In this document: positions 16,650 to 61,026 of the stretch, piece after piece | Numbering within the stretch: position 1 is the first letter of the stretch | How the letters are laid out: every line of letters starts with the position of its first letter | Assembly: GCF_002005145.1 (NCBI RefSeq) | Contig: NZ_CP019698.1 | Span: forward strand, 3,038,001-3,102,000 | Length of the DNA stretch: 64,000 bases | Reading direction: 5' to 3' | DNA from: Desulforamulus ferrireducens | GTDB taxonomy: Bacteria > Bacillota > Desulfotomaculia > Desulfotomaculales > Desulfotomaculaceae | Notes under the pieces: model-generated | What the model was told of the DNA's origin: nothing | Seen by the model: only the letters and a program-made list of their open reading frames with translations | The model's database searches: none | Made by a program: the position numbers and the translations under genes

Positions 16650-18155
16650 TTGAATGCAGTTATCTACGCCCGGTTTTCCAGCGACAACCAGCGGGAAGAA
16701 AGCATTACCGCACAGGTGCGGGCCTGTACGGAATACTGCAAACGAAAGGGCTACATCATCGTAAAAACTTACACCGACGAAGCCCGCTCCGCCCTGACCG
16801 ACGACCGCCCCCAGTTCCAGCAGATGGTTCAGGACGCCCGGGACGGCCTGTTTGATGTCCTGATTGTTCACAAACTGGATCGGTTCGCCCGCAACCGCTA
16901 CGACAGCGCCTTTTATAAGCGGGAACTGCGCCGCGCCGGGGTAAAGATGGAATCCGTTCTGGAACACCTGGACGATTCGCCAGAAAGCATTCTGCTGGAA
17001 AGCTTACTGGAAGGCCTGGCCGAGTATTACAGCAAGAACCTGGGCCGGGAAGCCATGAAAGGGATGAAAGAAACCGCCCTGCAGGCCAAACACTGCGGCG
17101 GCATACCACCGCTGGGGCTGGACGTGGGGCCGGACCGCAGCTACATGATTAACGGACATGAAGCAAAGGCCGTGCACCTGATTTTTGATATGTATGACCA
17201 AGGTTTTGGTTACGACAGGATTATCGACGAATTGAACTCTTTTGGTTACCGCACCAAACGGGGCGGTCCGTTCGGCAAGAACTCTTTGCACGAAATTTTA
17301 AAGAACGAAAAGTATATCGGCGTCTACACCTTCAACAAACGCCAGGGCAGGACAGCCTACGGGCGCAAAAACAACCGCCGGCAAAAACCGGCGGAAGAGA
17401 TCATCCGCATCCCCGGTGCCATTCCCGCCATTATCGACGAGGCCTTATTCAACCGGGTGCAGGAAAGAATGCTTAAACGCAAGCAAAACCCCGAACGGGC
17501 CAGGCAAAAAGCCAAAACTGTGTTTCTGCTCACAGGTTTGGTATTCTGTGGAGTGTGCGGCACCGCTTATATAGGCAATACCGCCACCAACAACGGCACC
17601 CGCTACGGGTATTATGAATGCGGGGCCCGGGACCGCACCAGGACCTGCACCAACCGGCGCATCAGGAAAAACGTGCTGGAGCAAATAGCTCTTGATGAAA
17701 TAGACAAAATCTTTGCTCCGGATGTGCGACCAACGCTGGTTAAGAAAACCATAGATTTTTATCACCAGTTATATAACCAGTCTGGTGATGAGAAAAAGTA
17801 CCTGGAAAAGGAACTCAAGCGGGTTCAAACAGCGATAAACAACCTGCTGCGCTTAATCGAGCAGGGTCAGGCATCGGACGCACTGGTGCAGCAGTTATCC
17901 AGGCGGGAACAGGAGGCGGCTTTGCTGCAGCAGGACTTGGACAGGCTATCCGCCAGGACGGCCATCATGTTGACTCAAAAGGATGTTGAGCTGTATTTTG
18001 AAAGCCTGTATCAGCAGTTTAAGGATAAAGAAAACGAGGAGCTGTTAAAGCACCTCGTCCAGCAGTTTGTTGCCAAAGTTACTGTTTTTGAAGATGAGAT
18101 TAAGGTTGATTTGAAAATAGTTTTGGTTACCATTGGTGGAGGCGGGGGGAGTTGA
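16650..18155 (+). CDS. Large serine recombinase (integrase) of the element
   Basis: About 501 residues. The catalytic domain has the active-site serine in YARFSSDNQ, then VLIVHKLDRFARNR. It is followed by a recombinase domain (GIPPLGLDV ... ILKNEKYIGVYTFNK), a zinc ribbon (GLVFCGVCG ... CTNRRIRK) and a C-terminal coiled coil (about 390-460). It would integrate and excise the element. TTG 16650, 10 bases after AAAGGGG, is my preferred start; ATG 16617 is possible. The last codons (GGGGGS, stop) lie inside the tmRNA 3' end, so ssrA is the attachment site and supplies the stop codon. Confidence 0.88.
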   Translation: MNAVIYARFSSDNQREESITAQVRACTEYCKRKGYIIVKTYTDEARSALTDDRPQFQQMVQDARDGLFDVLIVHKLDRFARNRYDSAFYKRELRRAGVKMESVLEHLDDSPESILLESLLEGLAEYYSKNLGREAMKGMKETALQAKHCGGIPPLGLDVGPDRSYMINGHEAKAVHLIFDMYDQGFGYDRIIDELNSFGYRTKRGGPFGKNSLHEILKNEKYIGVYTFNKRQGRTAYGRKNNRRQKPAEEIIRIPGAIPAIIDEALFNRVQERMLKRKQNPERARQKAKTVFLLTGLVFCGVCGTAYIGNTATNNGTRYGYYECGARDRTRTCTNRRIRKNVLEQIALDEIDKIFAPDVRPTLVKKTIDFYHQLYNQSGDEKKYLEKELKRVQTAINNLLRLIEQGQASDALVQQLSRREQEAALLQQDLDRLSARTAIMLTQKDVELYFESLYQQFKDKENEELLKHLVQQFVAKVTVFEDEIKVDLKIVLVTIGGGGGS

Positions 18156-18484
18156 ACCCACCGTCCGAAAGAGCAACCACAACAGGCTCTACGAGCGTAT
18201 ACTATGCTTTAGGTTTCGCTTCATTGGCGGCCATAGTCAGCCTACAATGTCGCTAGTCCGGCAATCTTAGCTATAGCCCTCCGAACTGCAGGCTATAGAG
18301 CGTCCCGCTATGTCGACCCCCTATCCCTCACCGCGGGCGCAGAGGGTAGAAGGTTAGACAGCAATTAAGCTGCTAAAGCGTAATTATCGTTGGCAATTAA
18401 ATTGCGTTCACCGTTTAACGGGTGGGTGAGATCCCGGCTCGCTCCTCTTGCCATTGCATCCCCCGTCGAAGCCATTTCGCCCCC
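18134..18484 (-). ncRNA. ssrA: tmRNA (10Sa RNA)
   Basis: The 5' end GGGGGCGAAATGGCTTCGAC and the 3' end with TTCAACTCCC and encoded CCA form the tRNA-like half. The tag reading frame encodes (A)NDNYALAA followed by TAA at 18365-18367; GCC is the likely resume codon, giving ANDNYALAA. tmRNA rescues stalled ribosomes with SmpB, encoded directly upstream. The 3' end doubles as the attachment site of the element to the left. Confidence 0.95.
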
Positions 18485-33685: not shown

Positions 33686-33729
33686 AACTCCCCCAGTCGC
33701 TACGCGACAGCCCCCTCAGCGAGGGGGCT
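33686..33729. repeat. CCTC two-hairpin repeat (type A)
   Basis: AACTCCCCCAGTCGCTACGC then GACAGCCCCCTC-AGC-GAGGGGGCT. Lies between two convergent genes and may serve as their terminator. Confidence 0.75.
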
Positions 33730-33754
33730 TAGTTCTGCCTGGGTGGTTTGCAGG

Positions 33755-34635: not shown

Positions 34636-34735
34636 ACTCCTTCCGGCAACTGCGCTGCCACCTTCCTCAGGGAGGAAGGTTTGGGGGTACTCCCTCCGGC
34701 GGCTACGCCGCCACCTCACTCGGGGAGTGAGTTTT
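34636..34735. repeat. Two tandem CCTC repeats (type B) with different stems
   Basis: Copy 1 has CCTTCCTC-AG-GGAGGAAGG; copy 2 has CTCACTC-GGG-GAGTGAG. Both keep the preceding ACTCC(C/T)TCCGGC box and the small GGC...GCC hairpin. Stem changes are paired on both sides. Confidence 0.75.
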
Positions 34736-45118: not shown

Positions 45119-45282
45119 AACTCCCTCCGTCAGCTTCGCCGCCACCTCCCTCGAAGAGGGAGGTTTTTTGTGCTGCATTTTTCCGGGGGAATAGCAATAT
45201 CATATGGCCGTTCCCTTAACATGAAAGGCTATCTAAAAAGCCCCCTCATCGAGGGGGCCGTCGCGTAGCGACTGGGGGAGTT
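45119..45282. repeat. Composite CCTC unit (type B, spacer, type A), copy 1
   Basis: Type B at 45119-45167, a spacer of about 70 bp with GGAATAGCAATATCATATGG and AACATGAAAGGC, then type A at 45239-45282. The same 164-bp layout recurs at 45823-45986. Confidence 0.8.
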
Positions 45283-45289
45283 ATTTTTA

Positions 45290-45402
45290 TTGCTGACTCT
45301 TTGCAGGAAAATAGCAATATCATGTGGTCGACACCTTAGCATGAAAGGCTTCTAAAAAAGCCCCCTCACCGAGGGGGCTGGCGCGTAGCGACTGGGGGAG
45401 TT
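45290..45402. repeat. Partial composite CCTC unit (spacer plus type A)
   Basis: The spacer (AAATAGCAATATCATGTGG, CATGAAAGGC) and type A repeat without the leading type B. It forms the 3' end and stop codon of the DUF559 gene. Confidence 0.8.
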
Positions 45403-45800
45403 ATTTTTTCAGAAGTTCTTCTCCCATGAGGGGACTTCCTCACTCCTCTCCTACTCTTAATAATCCTATCTATCTCCTCACAAACACCTCTAAAGTTTCT
45501 ATCTACATCAAGATTAGAAAAACGCACCACTTCTACACCCAGCTTCTTTAAAACCTCGGTACGCCGTGCATCATACTCTAGTCCTTCACCACTATAGTGT
45601 TGACTACCATCAAGCTCGATAACCAGTCTGGCTTGGTGGCAGTAAAAATCCACTATATAGTCGGCAATTGCTTTTTGCCTTTGGCATCTGGGAGAATATT
45701 TGCTGAGGAATTGATACCACAATTTCTTTTCCTGGGGTGTCATATTTTTTCTCAGTGTTTTAGCCTGTGGGATGAGGTTGCCATTATAGGGTAAGGACAT
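45366..45800 (-). CDS. DUF559 endonuclease embedded in CCTC repeats
   Basis: About 144 residues. Start ATG 45800 has GGAGGT 7 bases upstream. The domain is a restriction/Vsr-like fold: ARTLRKNMTP-type opening (AKTLRKNMTPQEKKLWYQFL), FRRQ-like QRQKAIADYIVDFYC, catalytic VIELDGSQHY and RTEVLKKLGVEVVRFSN. The last dozen residues (TPPVATRQPPR) and the stop are encoded by a type A repeat. The open frame also runs upstream into a type B repeat. Function of such solo DUF559 proteins is unknown; a nuclease that mobilises its flanking repeats is one possibility. Confidence 0.8.
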   Translation of the reverse strand: MSLPYNGNLIPQAKTLRKNMTPQEKKLWYQFLSKYSPRCQRQKAIADYIVDFYCHQARLVIELDGSQHYSGEGLEYDARRTEVLKKLGVEVVRFSNLDVDRNFRGVCEEIDRIIKSRRGVRKSPHGRRTSEKITPPVATRQPPR

Positions 45801-45822
45801 ATACAACCTCCTTTTACTCTTT

Positions 45823-45986
45823 ACTCCCTCCGTCGGCTTCGCCGCCACCTCCCTCGGAGAGGGAGGTTTTTTTGTGCTGCCTCTTTGCAAGGAAATAGCA
45901 ACATTACAGGGTTGTTACCTTGACATGACAGGTTTTCTAAAGAGCCCCCTCAGTGAGGGGGCTGGCGCGTAGCGACTGGGGGAGTT
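45823..45986. repeat. Composite CCTC unit, copy 2
   Basis: Type B (45823-45870), spacer with GGAAATAGCAACATTACAGG and GACATGACAGG, type A (45943-45986). With copy 1 it brackets the DUF559 gene. Its right end adjoins the uvrA stop. Confidence 0.8.
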
Positions 45987-48879: not shown

Positions 48880-49455
48880 TTTCTCCTTATTTTAGCCATC
48901 GGCTTATTGGTTTAGGGTTGGTTGATGCTCCAAGGAAAATTCCAATACTACTATACTTGATAGGCCAGGAAAAAACAATGGCCCATAGAACATTTGTACG
49001 ATATTTGTAAGAATTACCAGGGACTTTAATGGGTCTGTTGTGCAATTAGGTGATGATGTGTATTGGCCGTCGGCCATCAGCCTTCGGCTTTCGGCTCTTG
49101 GCTTTATGGCCTTGCATAGGCCTTTTTGGACCTCCCTCTTTGAGGGAGGTGGCGGCGCAGCCGCCGGAGGGAGTTGGGTGTAAATCCCTGCAATACTCCC
49201 CCAGGCGCTTCGCGCCACGACCCCCGACCCCTCAGCGAGGGGGCTCAAATAAAGTCCCATCTCCAGGGGAATGTCTACAAGTACCGGGTTTAATCCAAAA
49301 AGCCGACGGCTGATGGCCGATGGCTGATGGCCAAAAGCCAACTGCCAAAGGCCAAAGGCCTTTAAGCCTATGGCTGACGAACAAATAAGGGAGTGTCGCA
49401 ACTACTGTTATGCGACACTCCCTGGCGTGCAGGGGAGTTATTGTTTGAAAGGTTA
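48880..49455. repeat. Nested repeat island between uvrB and uvrA
   Basis: Heptad array GGCCGTCGGCCATCAGCC at 49063-49122; reversed type B CCTC repeat at 49130-49175; type A repeat at 49195-49244; inverted heptad array at 49300-49378; GGGAGTGTCGCA hairpin at 49388-49423. The outer arrays are inverted relative to each other. No gene is supported; the long minus-strand frame here is repeat-encoded. Confidence 0.75.
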
Positions 49456-53028: not shown

Positions 53029-53466
53029 GAACTGTCTAGGCTTACAGGCATTGCCTTGGGGTCTTGTCTGGGCTCAAGAGCATTATCCTTGGGTCCGGTC
53101 TGGGCTTTGGGGCAAAGCTCTGGGGTCCTGTAGAAGGGAAAACTATTAGGGAGTGTCGCATAATTACGGTAATGCGACACTTCTCTATTTTGGCTATCAG
53201 ACTTCGGCCGTCAGCTTTTTGAGCCTTAGGCCTTAGGCCGTAAGCCATAGGCTTGGTTATAATAACATGTTGCACTCATGCTTTATAGTAGTACATTACC
53301 CTTGAGATGGATTATAAAAGTCCCCTCGCCGAGGGGTCGGGGGTCGTGGCACGTAGTGCCTGGGGGAGTTGCTTTGGGTCCAACTCCCTCCGTCGGCTTC
53401 GCCGCCACCTCCCTCAAAGAGGGATGTCAAAATAGGCCTATGGCCAATCCTTTTTACTGACCCGCT
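53029..53466. repeat. Repeat island: 11-mer array, GGGAGTGTCGCA hairpin, heptad array, two CCTC repeats
   Basis: 11-mer units (CCTTGGGGTC, GGCTTTGGGG, GCTCTGGGGTCC) at 53037-53132; hairpin at 53148-53187; heptads (TCGGCCGTCAGC, GCCTTAGGCC) at 53195-53260; type A repeat at 53319-53370; type B repeat at 53382-53427. No gene is supported. Confidence 0.75.
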
Positions 53467-54783
53467 CTACTGCCCATTCTTTTGCCGGCGGTTGCTTAAC
53501 CAGCGGTTGAGGGGGCCTTGGGTGGATAGTTCCATGTAGTTCCCCTCATTGCCTTCCGGCACAGGCAACAGGCCCAGCATTTCTTGTTCCTTTATCTCCA
53601 GGCCCTCTCGAATAATTTGCCTTTCACTTTGGGAGTAGTAGGTGATTTGCAAGTCTTTATAAATACCCAGGGCAAATTCCAACCCCTGGCGGCTGTTCAC
53701 AGACATACCGTTTACTTCCACTATAATATCGCCGGAACGAATGCCCGCCTGCCAGGCGGGATAACCGGGAATCACATCTAATACTTTTACCCCCTGCTTA
53801 CAGGCCTGATAAATGGGTTTGCCCATCTCCATACGTTTGCCCAGGTAAATTACCAGTTCATGCCCCAGGGGCGCAAACAGTGCAGCCACAAAGGCAAATA
53901 TTGCCAGCCGGTCGGCCCACACTGCTAGGGCCAGCAACAGCAAACTATACAAGCCCAGGATCACAGCGGAAATCCGTCCCTTTTGCCGGGGGGTACGGGC
54001 GGCAGCCAGGTCGCCATAGCCCAGACCGGCAATGACAGGCATTAGTGTATAAATAGCATTTTCAAAGCGGCCCAGGTTTTCCTTAATTAAAGGCCACCAA
54101 TCCCCGGGCACAATAAACAACACATCCTGGGTGTTAAAGGTACTTTTACCTTGCCTGAGCAGGTCCAGCCAATCGGACATGCCCAGGAGCCCGCTGGGTC
54201 CGTTGGTGTGACCCACCAGCATCAATACTGCCATGGGAATAGGCCAGAATTTTTGCAGGAGAAACCCCCCAACCACTTTTCCCTCGGCATTCTTAAAGTA
54301 GGTAGGTACAGCCCCCAGATGCCCGCTAACTAAAATCAAAAAGGCTTCCACCATATGCAATACCGCCACCAGGCCTAAAATCTGCGGCACCTGCAGCTCC
54401 GGCCAGCCAAACAGCAGGGAGGACAGGGCAAGGATACCTCCGGCGTAGGCAAAACAAATAAATCTGACATCAATAAGCATTAGCAAAATGGCCAGGGGCC
54501 ACAGGTACATCAGACCTGAGCCGGACAGGCTTAAGCCCACAAAGATCATGAGATAACTGGCTAATATCCCACCCAGTAGCCCCAAGCCTACGCTAAGTAG
54601 CACATCCCGCCAAATCCCCCGGGGTTTTAAACCGAAAAACTTTTCCTTAGCCTTGCCAATGCGGTAATACTGCAAGGCTACAATGGCTATCACCAGTAAG
54701 AACAGATTCAGAAGGTCTTTTTCGGTAAATACTGCTGCCAAGGCTTCTGCCAACAGTGGTGTAATTTCAGTAAAGGGAAACAT
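53467..54783 (-). CDS. MinJ-like membrane protein with PDZ domain
   Basis: About 438 residues. Eight or so TM helices (about 20-330) followed by a PDZ domain (VLDVIPGYPAWQAGIRSGDI, VEVNGMSVNSRQGLE). In Bacillus, MinJ (YvjD), the DivIVA-MinD bridge of the division-site system, has this architecture and is near ctpB and ftsEX, as here. ATG 54783 is preferred over the upstream GTG/TTG options. Ortholog assignment rests on layout and context. Confidence 0.75.
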   Translation of the reverse strand: MFPFTEITPLLAEALAAVFTEKDLLNLFLLVIAIVALQYYRIGKAKEKFFGLKPRGIWRDVLLSVGLGLLGGILASYLMIFVGLSLSGSGLMYLWPLAILLMLIDVRFICFAYAGGILALSSLLFGWPELQVPQILGLVAVLHMVEAFLILVSGHLGAVPTYFKNAEGKVVGGFLLQKFWPIPMAVLMLVGHTNGPSGLLGMSDWLDLLRQGKSTFNTQDVLFIVPGDWWPLIKENLGRFENAIYTLMPVIAGLGYGDLAAARTPRQKGRISAVILGLYSLLLLALAVWADRLAIFAFVAALFAPLGHELVIYLGKRMEMGKPIYQACKQGVKVLDVIPGYPAWQAGIRSGDIIVEVNGMSVNSRQGLEFALGIYKDLQITYYSQSERQIIREGLEIKEQEMLGLLPVPEGNEGNYMELSTQGPLNRWLSNRRQKNGQ

Positions 54784-54854
54784 GGTAGAACATCCACTCC
54801 ACAAATATCTTTAAGGTGGTGTCGTAAAAAACAATGCCTTATCAATTTAATATA

Positions 54855-54897
54855 AAGCCCCCTCAGTGAGGGGGCAAGGAGCAAAGCCACTGGGTTG
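54855..54897. repeat. CCTC repeat (type A)
   Basis: AAGCCCCCTC-AGT-GAGGGGGC followed by GGAGCAAAGCCACTGGGTTG, a diverged tail. Directly after the ctpA stop. Confidence 0.65.
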
Positions 54898-58891: not shown

Positions 58892-59244
58892 GGTTTACTC
58901 CCAAGCTAAAATTTTTGTATAAAAGTTTTGTGCCACCTAACCCTGTTCGACGCAATTTACTTAAATTCCTTTAGATTTCGCCAAAAAATACTTCCTAATT
59001 CACCAGTTACTGGGAACTCCTTGCCCCTTCAGATGGGTTTTCCGCAACTAAGTAACGCAATTTGGGGGCCATCAGCCATCGGCTAAAAGAATGGCCTTTG
59101 GCTTTTGGCCATTAGCCTTTGTTTTGTTACCCCAAGTGTGGGCTCCCTCGCTGAGGGGTCGGGGGCCGCGAGACGCGAAGCGACTGGGGGAGTTATGCCC
59201 CAACTCCCTCCGGCGGCTTTGCCGCCCCTCCTTCAGGGAGGGGC
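58892..59244. repeat. Intergenic region with heptad array and two CCTC repeats
   Basis: The left 150 bp should hold the ftsE promoter. Heptads (GGCCATCAGCCATCGGC, GGCCTTTGGCTTTTGGCC) at about 59067-59118, type A repeat at 59142-59193, type B at 59202-59243. No gene is supported. Confidence 0.7.
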
Positions 59245-60870
59245 CTATTCTGCTTTGTTTGCTTTGGGATATTGCTGAAGTCCTTCCCTTACAGCTTTAA
59301 TATCAGCCTGGTTCATGTCAAAACGATAGGTTCTGGCTGGCACCTGGCCATCCCAGTCAATGCCATTCCACCAAATCATCACTTTGATATTGGGATAGTT
59401 TTTCATCTTGGCAAAAGCCTCTTTGATCCAGGCATTCTTGTTACCACCGTAGTGATTAGTACCAAACTCAGTAATCATAAAGGGTTTATGGGGAAACATC
59501 TCCATATTTTCCTGGTATAAGGGATCATAAATTTCCGTGAACCCCCGCCATTTTTCCCCGGGATAATAGGTACCGGTGTTGTAGCCGGTGAGCCCTATAA
59601 TGTCCACATATTCATCGCCCGGATAATAACAGGCAGGGTAATTCCATTTAAAATCAGGGAAGGAGGTGTCATGGGGGTTCCACACCCAGAGGGCGTTATC
59701 CACCCCTTGCTCCTTGAAAATTTTGTAGATATAGCGCCAAACCTCCACATACAGATTGGCATCCTTGGAGCTATGATAAGCGGAATAGGAGCACCAGTCA
59801 CCGTTCATTTCGTTGTTTAAGCGGAAAAGTACCGGTTTGCCAAAGGCTTTAACCTCTTTAGCATAATTAATCAGGAATTGATCGTAGACACCATTTAAAA
59901 TATCGTAGGTTTTGGGCCTGGTGAAATCCTCGCCGGAACCAATCATTTGCAGGGTCAGCTCAACGACCCTGTTATACTGGTGTGCTTGCTCCAGTATTTC
60001 TTTGATGGGAACCTTGTTTAAATTGCTATAGTAGAGAACAAAATCAAAGGTATAGTCTAATTGTTTTTCCAGATTCAGTAAGTATTGCGGTTCGGTGGGG
60101 AAGCTGTATTCATAGATGCCCCAGTGCTGCTCTTCTCCCTTAAAATATTGGTTCAGCAGTTCCTCTGCTGCCTCAGATAAAGGAAAGTTACGCTCATTAC
60201 TCTGTGGCAAGGAGTAAACAGCCCTGCCCTGTTTGGGTATGACGCTAAAGCTGTTCACCATTTGCGGCACCAGATTATTGAGTATTTCCAGAGAGTTGGA
60301 TTTAAAATGCAGGGAGTAGATTTCCCTTTGATTGACAATGATATCTACCGAAACATAGACATTTTTATCATTAGCTACTCTATTTAATTGCGGTCTTACC
60401 CACCATAATTGTCTGGTTAGTAAGCCATTAACCCTTTCGCTGCTATTTTTAATAATCTGCACCTTGTCTTTGCCCGTGGTAATGGGGCTATTGCCATAAT
60501 TAACATAGGCTTCGGGCGAAGTGTTTAACGGTTGATAGTAAATCTCTACCCTGGTGTTATCATCCGCCAGGGTAGTTCGGACGGGGGATAGTGATACATC
60601 CAGCCACATGGCAGAGGGGTATTGAATTTGATAGCCATCGGGGTAGTTTTTTAAGGTATTTATGTAATGCTGCCCATACTCAATAATTTTGGTATCCCGC
60701 TGCCAATCGGGGGTAGTGGTTTGCTTTCCGTCCACCAGGATGGTCGGCGCGGTTTGGGCTGGCTGGGCAGTAACAACGTTACCGGTAAAGGCAGCACTTG
60801 CATAAAGTACACAGCTGACAAAGAGCACAGTTAGATATTTTTTGGTTTTGCCAAGTAAGCTGATTTTCAA
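59245..60870 (-). CDS. Secreted GH26-like glycoside hydrolase with an unassigned N-terminal domain
   Basis: 541 residues. Signal peptide (YLTVLFVSCVLYASAAFTG), an unassigned beta-rich domain (about 40-215) and a C-terminal (beta/alpha)8-type hydrolase (about 235-535). The second half has RLNNEMNGDW (acid/base Glu), NALWVWNPHDTSFPDF and MITEFGTNH (nucleophile Glu), as in GH26 mannanase-like enzymes. Substrate is not evident; a surface or biofilm polysaccharide is plausible. TTG start follows GGAGGAGAG. Confidence 0.8.
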   Translation of the reverse strand: MKISLLGKTKKYLTVLFVSCVLYASAAFTGNVVTAQPAQTAPTILVDGKQTTTPDWQRDTKIIEYGQHYINTLKNYPDGYQIQYPSAMWLDVSLSPVRTTLADDNTRVEIYYQPLNTSPEAYVNYGNSPITTGKDKVQIIKNSSERVNGLLTRQLWWVRPQLNRVANDKNVYVSVDIIVNQREIYSLHFKSNSLEILNNLVPQMVNSFSVIPKQGRAVYSLPQSNERNFPLSEAAEELLNQYFKGEEQHWGIYEYSFPTEPQYLLNLEKQLDYTFDFVLYYSNLNKVPIKEILEQAHQYNRVVELTLQMIGSGEDFTRPKTYDILNGVYDQFLINYAKEVKAFGKPVLFRLNNEMNGDWCSYSAYHSSKDANLYVEVWRYIYKIFKEQGVDNALWVWNPHDTSFPDFKWNYPACYYPGDEYVDIIGLTGYNTGTYYPGEKWRGFTEIYDPLYQENMEMFPHKPFMITEFGTNHYGGNKNAWIKEAFAKMKNYPNIKVMIWWNGIDWDGQVPARTYRFDMNQADIKAVREGLQQYPKANKAE

Positions 60871-60982
60871 CTATAACTCTCCTCCTAAATTAAACACTAA
60901 TTAGTTAAACTTCTCTATATTTTTGTAGAATCCTGTCTATCCATAGCACCTTGTAGAGAAAGTCAAAGGAGGTAAATGATAA

Positions 60983-61026
60983 AACCCCCTCTGGGAGGGG
61001 GCTGGAGCAAAGCAACGAGTGAAGTT
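60983..61026. repeat. CCTC repeat (type A, diverged)
   Basis: AAACCCCCTC-TGG-GAGGGGGCT with tail GGAGCAAAGCAACGAGTGAA, directly after the transketolase C stop. Confidence 0.6.

Follow-up and report, generated by a model that had tools for sequence, protein, structure and literature searches.

We read the DUF559 nuclease gene of Desulforamulus ferrireducens, together with the two different hairpin units A and B that bound it, as a very small mobile cassette with passive deletion copies, most likely moved by a nuclease-driven mechanism, and we assign this reading a probability of about 0.6. Several observations made on the 64,000-nucleotide stretch (hereafter the window) and on other genomes support it: the cassette has discrete boundaries in unrelated flanks, deletion derivatives exist, the hairpins are conserved, the ends diverge together with the protein, and congeners have the site unoccupied. 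To our knowledge, DUF559 is a widespread family without a settled function.

The DUF559 gene of the window and its hairpin units

The gene lies within a dense cluster of units, the features of which are as follows.

45366-45800, minus strand: DUF559 (PF04480) EDxHD/Vsr-like nuclease gene, 144 amino acids (Pfam E 1.8e-29; AAAGGAGG before the ATG)
45119-45282: 164-bp composite, copy 1 (A, spacer and B back to back; 85% identity to copy 2)
45823-45986: 164-bp composite, copy 2 (85% identity to copy 1)
45823-45869, minus strand: unit A, 5' cassette end (unit alignment; fold z -3.4; same end upstream of DUF559 in gut Clostridia)
45359-45402, plus strand: unit B, 3' cassette end (unit alignment; folds better than shuffles)
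45239-45282, plus strand: extra unit B with its spacer, 120 bp from the cassette's own B (direct repeat D1)
45120-45165, minus strand: extra unit A at the distal end of the cluster (direct repeat D2, 96% identity to the cassette's own A)
45943-45986, plus strand: extra unit B adjoining uvrA (direct repeat D1)

As the preliminary description had proposed, two 164-bp composites flank the DUF559 gene, and their alignment gives 139 identities, 24 mismatches and 2 single-base gaps. Each composite consists of unit A on the minus strand, a spacer of about 75 bp and unit B on the plus strand; an additional copy of spacer and B at 45284-45406 contains the unit B that ends the cassette. The order across 45119-45986 is A(-), B(+), B(+), gene(-), A(-), B(+), with unit A on the 5' side of the gene and unit B on its 3' side, A and B being distinct two-hairpin units. 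Five units are packed into these 868 bp versus 12 across the remaining window (Poisson P = 9e-7). The further proposal that the repeats supply both ends of the gene held for one of them: unit B at 45359-45402 encodes the 11 final codons and the stop (TPPVATRQPPR*), whereas unit A lies outside the N-terminus. The ATG at 45800, with AAAGGAGG ahead of it, is very probably the start of the gene, and the upstream unit A would therefore be a non-coding 5' untranslated leader.

Each unit is composed of stem 1 (about 9 bp with a three-base loop), stem 2 (4-5 bp) and the G-rich tail GGGGAG(TT). In type A, stem 1 is CCTCCCTC..GAGGGAGG, stem 2 is GGCGGCGAAGCCGAC and the tail is GGAGGGAGT (consensus CCTCCCTC..GAGGGAGG TGGCGGCGAAGC(C/T)GAC GGAGGGAGT); the corresponding elements of type B are GCCCCCTC..GAGGGGGC, GGCGCGTAGCGAC and TGGGGGAGTT (consensus GCCCCCTC..GAGGGGGC TG(G/T)CGCGTAGCGAC TGGGGGAGTT). 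As single-stranded DNA, all 5 units of the cluster fold better than shuffled sequences (z -2.5 to -3.5). Among 54 A units from many genomes, for which the flanking letters TGGC...GACGGAG were fixed by the search itself, stem 2 occurs with 31 different arms and Watson-Crick pairing is 91% versus 31% in shuffled arms; hence, the conserved feature of stem 2 is the hairpin and not its letters. No Rfam match was obtained at the units, the sole Rfam find in the window being the tmRNA gene (RF00023) at 18134-18484 on the minus strand.

Hairpins placed in this manner could also serve as ordinary bidirectional terminators that insulate a gene acquired horizontally and are themselves immobile. The locus has 6 terminator-like sites versus 1.5 expected, and congeners carry a plain terminator-like inverted repeat at the corresponding place. 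Stem 2 and the tails are unnecessary for termination, yet they are conserved by covariation and position; moreover, the gene-less pairs have multiplied and the boundaries are sharp with unrelated flanks, all of which leaves terminators a highly improbable explanation.

A structural model of the window protein (the ORF plus one extra N-terminal residue; pLDDT 85) matched the DUF559 structure 3HRL (TMt 0.81) and I-Bth0305I (3R3P; TMt 0.80), with Vsr further down, and the E, Q, D and E-x-D-G columns of the acidic core were invariant in 33 sequences. By its Pfam match, modelled fold and invariant acidic core, the protein belongs to the DUF559 / EDxHD-Vsr superfamily and is a putative nuclease; the EDxHD family includes a DUF559 gene (PMC9403480). 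A reading as a defence system was rejected, as PADLOC gave just weak matches to restriction-like and DpdF models.

Passive copies and the association of units with DUF559

Outside the cluster, the window contains the following passive copies and larger repeats.

33688-33731, minus strand: single passive unit B (profile match E 4e-12)
34638-34735, minus strand: two tandem passive A units (profile matches)
49129-49246: passive A/B pair (A plus, B minus) inside a larger GGCC-array repeat (profile matches)
53314-53428: passive pair (B plus, A minus) inside a larger repeat (profile matches; folding)
54851-54875, plus strand: partial unit, stem 1 only (profile match)
59142-59251: passive pair (B plus, A minus) (profile matches)
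60981-61025, plus strand: degenerate passive unit (profile match)
49000-49420 and 53150-53600: copies of a palindromic repeat of about 400 bp (also at L167-L186 and L187-L216)

The unit profile recovered all of the scattered copies named earlier, together with one additional copy at 37.1 kb. They had been taken for copies of a palindrome; they do bear hairpins, but they represent two asymmetric units, A and B, and not one palindrome. Passive copies usually consist of A and B in inverted orientation around a short spacer, whose place is taken by the DUF559 gene in the cassette. The genome is complete (3.24 Mb) and has one DUF559 gene, while GGAGGGAGTT-N3-30-AACTCCC, the heart of the inverted A/B pair, occurs 28 times versus 0 for the reversed control; the genome-wide unit counts are based on pattern and profile searches. 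Neither the A/B-pair pattern nor a strong (true) DUF559 match is present in any of 8 congeners. Four of them keep the permease-uvrA neighbourhood, with gene and units both missing between, and the 3 of these read at the junction have just a short intergenic inverted repeat. The DUF559 cluster is most simply explained as a gain in this lineage.

The units and the gene are also linked at the level of whole genomes. In a sample of 200 genomes of one family, which includes incomplete MAGs and for which the statistics ignore phylogeny, A units were found in 29 of 49 genomes with DUF559 and in 14 of 151 without (p = 5e-12), and the difference persisted when one unit per gene was discounted (17/49 vs 14/151, p = 7e-5). 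The incomplete MAGs may explain some of the 14 unit-bearing genomes in which DUF559 was not detected. Units are carried by 18 of 25 DUF559 genomes, and by none with the reversed-pattern control. The stem-2 arm of passive copies matches the DUF559-linked unit of the same genome slightly better than those of other genomes, a weak effect (p = 0.05). Two genomes, G642 and G495, hold 11 and 6 A units without a detected DUF559 gene, and their units are either relics or the gene is missing from the assemblies. In G558, a tandem repeat that contains units (L255, 1291-1772) has a 182-bp period and 96% identity, and four units stand 70 bp apart at C61:62655-62893.

A scan of one genome per species detected at least 575 relatives, and 80 loci, mostly from gut Clostridia, were retained. 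Inverted similarity between the 300-bp flanks reached at least 18 for 34 of 77 DUF559 genes and for 0 of 770 controls of the same size drawn from the same contigs; 63% of 78 DUF559 loci from other genomes had a hairpin of 8 bp or more on each side, as did 0.9% of controls. Thus, the genome-wide test that had been suggested, whether DUF559 genes lie within the units above expectation, gave a clearly positive answer. The typical orientation is A type upstream and B type downstream, although in some clades both sides carry B-like units. Beyond Clostridia, the flanks of DUF559 in Deinococcus and in IMG/VR contigs hold strong inverted repeats whose sequence is a different one; two of the latter (L047 and L050) have DUF559 between CCCTCACCCCCAACCCCTCTCCC..GGGAGAGGGG repeats, which form another repeat family arranged in the same way. 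At locus L135 (8780-9360), about 46 bp (TACGGTAAGCTCGGAATAATGA...) are directly repeated on either side of the DUF559 cassette, resembling a duplication of neighbouring sequence.

No units flank the DUF559 homologues of E. coli and Neisseria, nor most of the cyanobacterial, alphaproteobacterial and Photobacterium homologues looked at, and these copies were dropped from the presence/absence comparison. The association with repeats is therefore a property of part of the DUF559 family only. The preliminary description had held that DUF559 genes without nearby repeats, and repeats abundant where DUF559 is absent, would refute it: repeat-free genes do exist in E. coli and Neisseria, and units occur in 14 genomes for which no DUF559 was detected.

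Cassette boundaries, deletion derivatives and proposed mobility

Most cross-species alignments of the cassettes extend no further than 55-70 bp upstream of the matched coding segment and about 50 bp past its downstream end. In 8 species the breakpoints coincide with the outer edge of stem 1 in each of the two units, the flanks are unrelated, and the cassettes that end in this way are 80-91% identical. Other groups of cassettes have longer flanks in common, which we take to mean that they reside inside another element. None of 45 cassettes showed a target duplication. Complementarity between the immediate flanks exceeds that of shuffled pairs (3.11 versus 2.55, sd 0.15), which is only suggestive of palindromic targets, several loci sharing one host repeat.

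In genome G480, two elements of 212 bp that lie 306 bp from each other and are 99% identical sit in different flanks. They span the outer stem-1 edges from A to B and have only this A-to-B stretch in common. Of DUF559, their core retains the first 24 or so codons and the final ones ahead of B, whereas the middle is deleted. Among 40 units, the A-to-B spacer is bimodal, with 12 below 50 bp and 26 at 350-400 bp, and the 2 at 117 bp, between the modes, are these deleted cassettes of G480. Some passive copies at least have thus arisen by internal deletion and have moved as A-to-B units. The copies of DUF559 within a genome are divergent, and the gene-bearing form was therefore not seen transposing recently, the best pair being only 82% identical; recent duplication of DUF559 within genomes was rejected accordingly. 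Neither an exact empty site nor an excision product was observed.

The near-identical cassettes in unrelated flanks also bear on the possibility that DUF559 is a free-standing homing endonuclease that cuts gene-less A/B pairs or palindromes, whereupon recombination copies its gene into the break. One of the closest solved structures is that of I-Bth0305I (an EDxHD homing endonuclease), a DUF559 gene has been assigned to the EDxHD family (PMC9403480), and the gene is located exactly at the short-spacer position of the gene-less pairs. Against these points, no single homologous target site was found and insertion sites are unrelated between species, gene-bearing copies are few and divergent despite plentiful gene-less targets, and the spread of the gene-less pairs themselves is left unexplained, so that we consider homing unlikely.

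Most pairs in the D. ferrireducens genome sit at one position of the palindromic repeat of about 400 bp. This intergenic repeat has a CCAGGGGAATGTGCTACAAGTACC core, arrays of GGCC heptads and a hairpin formed by GTGTCGCAT..ATGCGACAC, and the A/B pair lies in its middle. The genome carries at least 40 copies of it and the 8 congeners none. Copies of this repeat without the pair were sought as empty sites, and none of the 30 inspected was clean (one copy lacked B). Pairs also lie midway in other repeats in G480 (L147-L158) and in G460 and G465 (L270-L285), and imperfect TIRs surround some nested pairs, e.g., GGAGCTGTTGCA ... TGCGACAGCTCC in G480. These larger repeats resemble IS-type MITEs, and much of the copy number of the pairs may be due to them.

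Alternatively, A and B might be mere passengers, with a DDE-type TIR transposase moving the larger repeats and DUF559 as cargo captured between the units. Such an arrangement would fit the constant position of the pair in nearly all of the 30 inspected copies among the 40 or more composites, the nested pairs with imperfect TIR arms (such as GGAGCTGTTGCA in G480, with further cases in G460 and G465) and the longer common flanks of some DUF559 cassettes. However, the arms that surround the A/B core are unrelated from genome to genome while the core stays the same, which suggests that the core itself was inserted into the larger repeats; the cassettes of 8 species stop exactly at stem 1 without TIR arms, the deleted cassettes of G480 have just A to B in common, and DUF559 recurs at one place with ends that follow its phylogeny. 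We therefore regard the passenger explanation as doubtful. On the tree of 78 DUF559 proteins, stem-1 type changes 6 times versus 37.8 when shuffled, and one end type corresponds to a single supported clade, although linkage within the cassette alone can yield such co-divergence without specificity.

Under the preferred reading of a nuclease-driven cassette, the mobile element would comprise DUF559 with A upstream and B downstream, about 450 bp in all. Its insertion would leave no target duplication and would take place mostly in intergenic DNA, often within palindromes already present. Internal deletion of the gene would produce passive, non-autonomous A-to-B copies comparable to a MITE or REPIN. 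Most probably, the nuclease would recognise the folded ends, or a palindromic target, as single-stranded or cruciform hairpins; by cutting or nicking there it would cause the A-to-B unit to be excised or copied and joined elsewhere, with host repair or replication completing the remaining steps. We infer in this scheme that the nuclease acts on the A/B ends and is required for movement.

If the repeat-bound branch of DUF559 does supply the enzyme of a mobile element, this branch gains a role, a class of intergenic hairpins that abounds in gut Clostridia and elsewhere is explained, and another nuclease chemistry joins the known routes of moving DNA. It would also provide an independent case for the question raised by REPINs, how single-copy enzymes coexist with large populations of passive repeats.

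Comparison with known systems

Like IS-derived MITEs, the passive copies are gene-less internal-deletion forms with inverted ends, and the two G480 cassettes are MITEs in the broad sense, i.e., internal-deletion derivatives of an enzyme-coding element. Unlike IS-derived MITEs, they lack target duplication (0/45), their A and B ends are asymmetric and consist of hairpins and not of simple TIRs, and these ends belong to a nuclease cassette and not to a DDE transposase. The fold and the conserved acidic residues are those of EDxHD homing endonucleases (I-Bth0305I, 3R3P) and Vsr (1CW0); known homing genes use a homologous target, whereas DUF559 cassettes stand at unrelated sites and are accompanied by passive derivatives. 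TIRtrons (TIRYT), whose enzyme is a tyrosine transposase (PMC3733652), likewise have the enzyme gene between repeats that also stand alone elsewhere in the genome, but the enzyme of the cassette is not a tyrosine transposase.

The REPIN/RAYT system, in which inverted REP doublets are paired with TnpA-REP, e.g., in Pseudomonas fluorescens (PMC3116915), was the resemblance first noted, and it stands as far as layout is concerned, with few, divergent genes and many inverted doublets. As in REPIN/RAYT, the hairpin doublets are inverted with a short spacer (28 pairs in the D. ferrireducens genome versus 0 in the control, with doublets also in G480 and G460), the enzyme gene lies between such units, and a few distinct enzyme copies accompany many passive ones. 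The resemblance does not extend to the enzyme, RAYT being a Y1 HUH transposase and DUF559 a nuclease of the Vsr/EDxHD fold; nor do REPINs have two hairpins per unit and two different end types as the cassette does, and by inspection the cassette has no GTAG/CGTC tag at the foot of stem 1. No unit was found within 1.5 kb of the two Y1_Tnp genes of the D. ferrireducens genome, and spread driven by RAYT was rejected for this reason. In line with the preliminary description, no DUF559-repeat system was found described in the literature searched (PMC full text).

The layout parallels REPIN/RAYT and the cassette is not a member of that system. As a tentative possibility, it might represent a new minimal class of transposable elements, in which one Vsr/EDxHD-type nuclease mobilises its own gene and many gene-less derivatives via asymmetric two-hairpin ends, unrelated to HUH, DDE, serine and tyrosine transposases and forming a convergent counterpart of REPIN/RAYT over several phyla.
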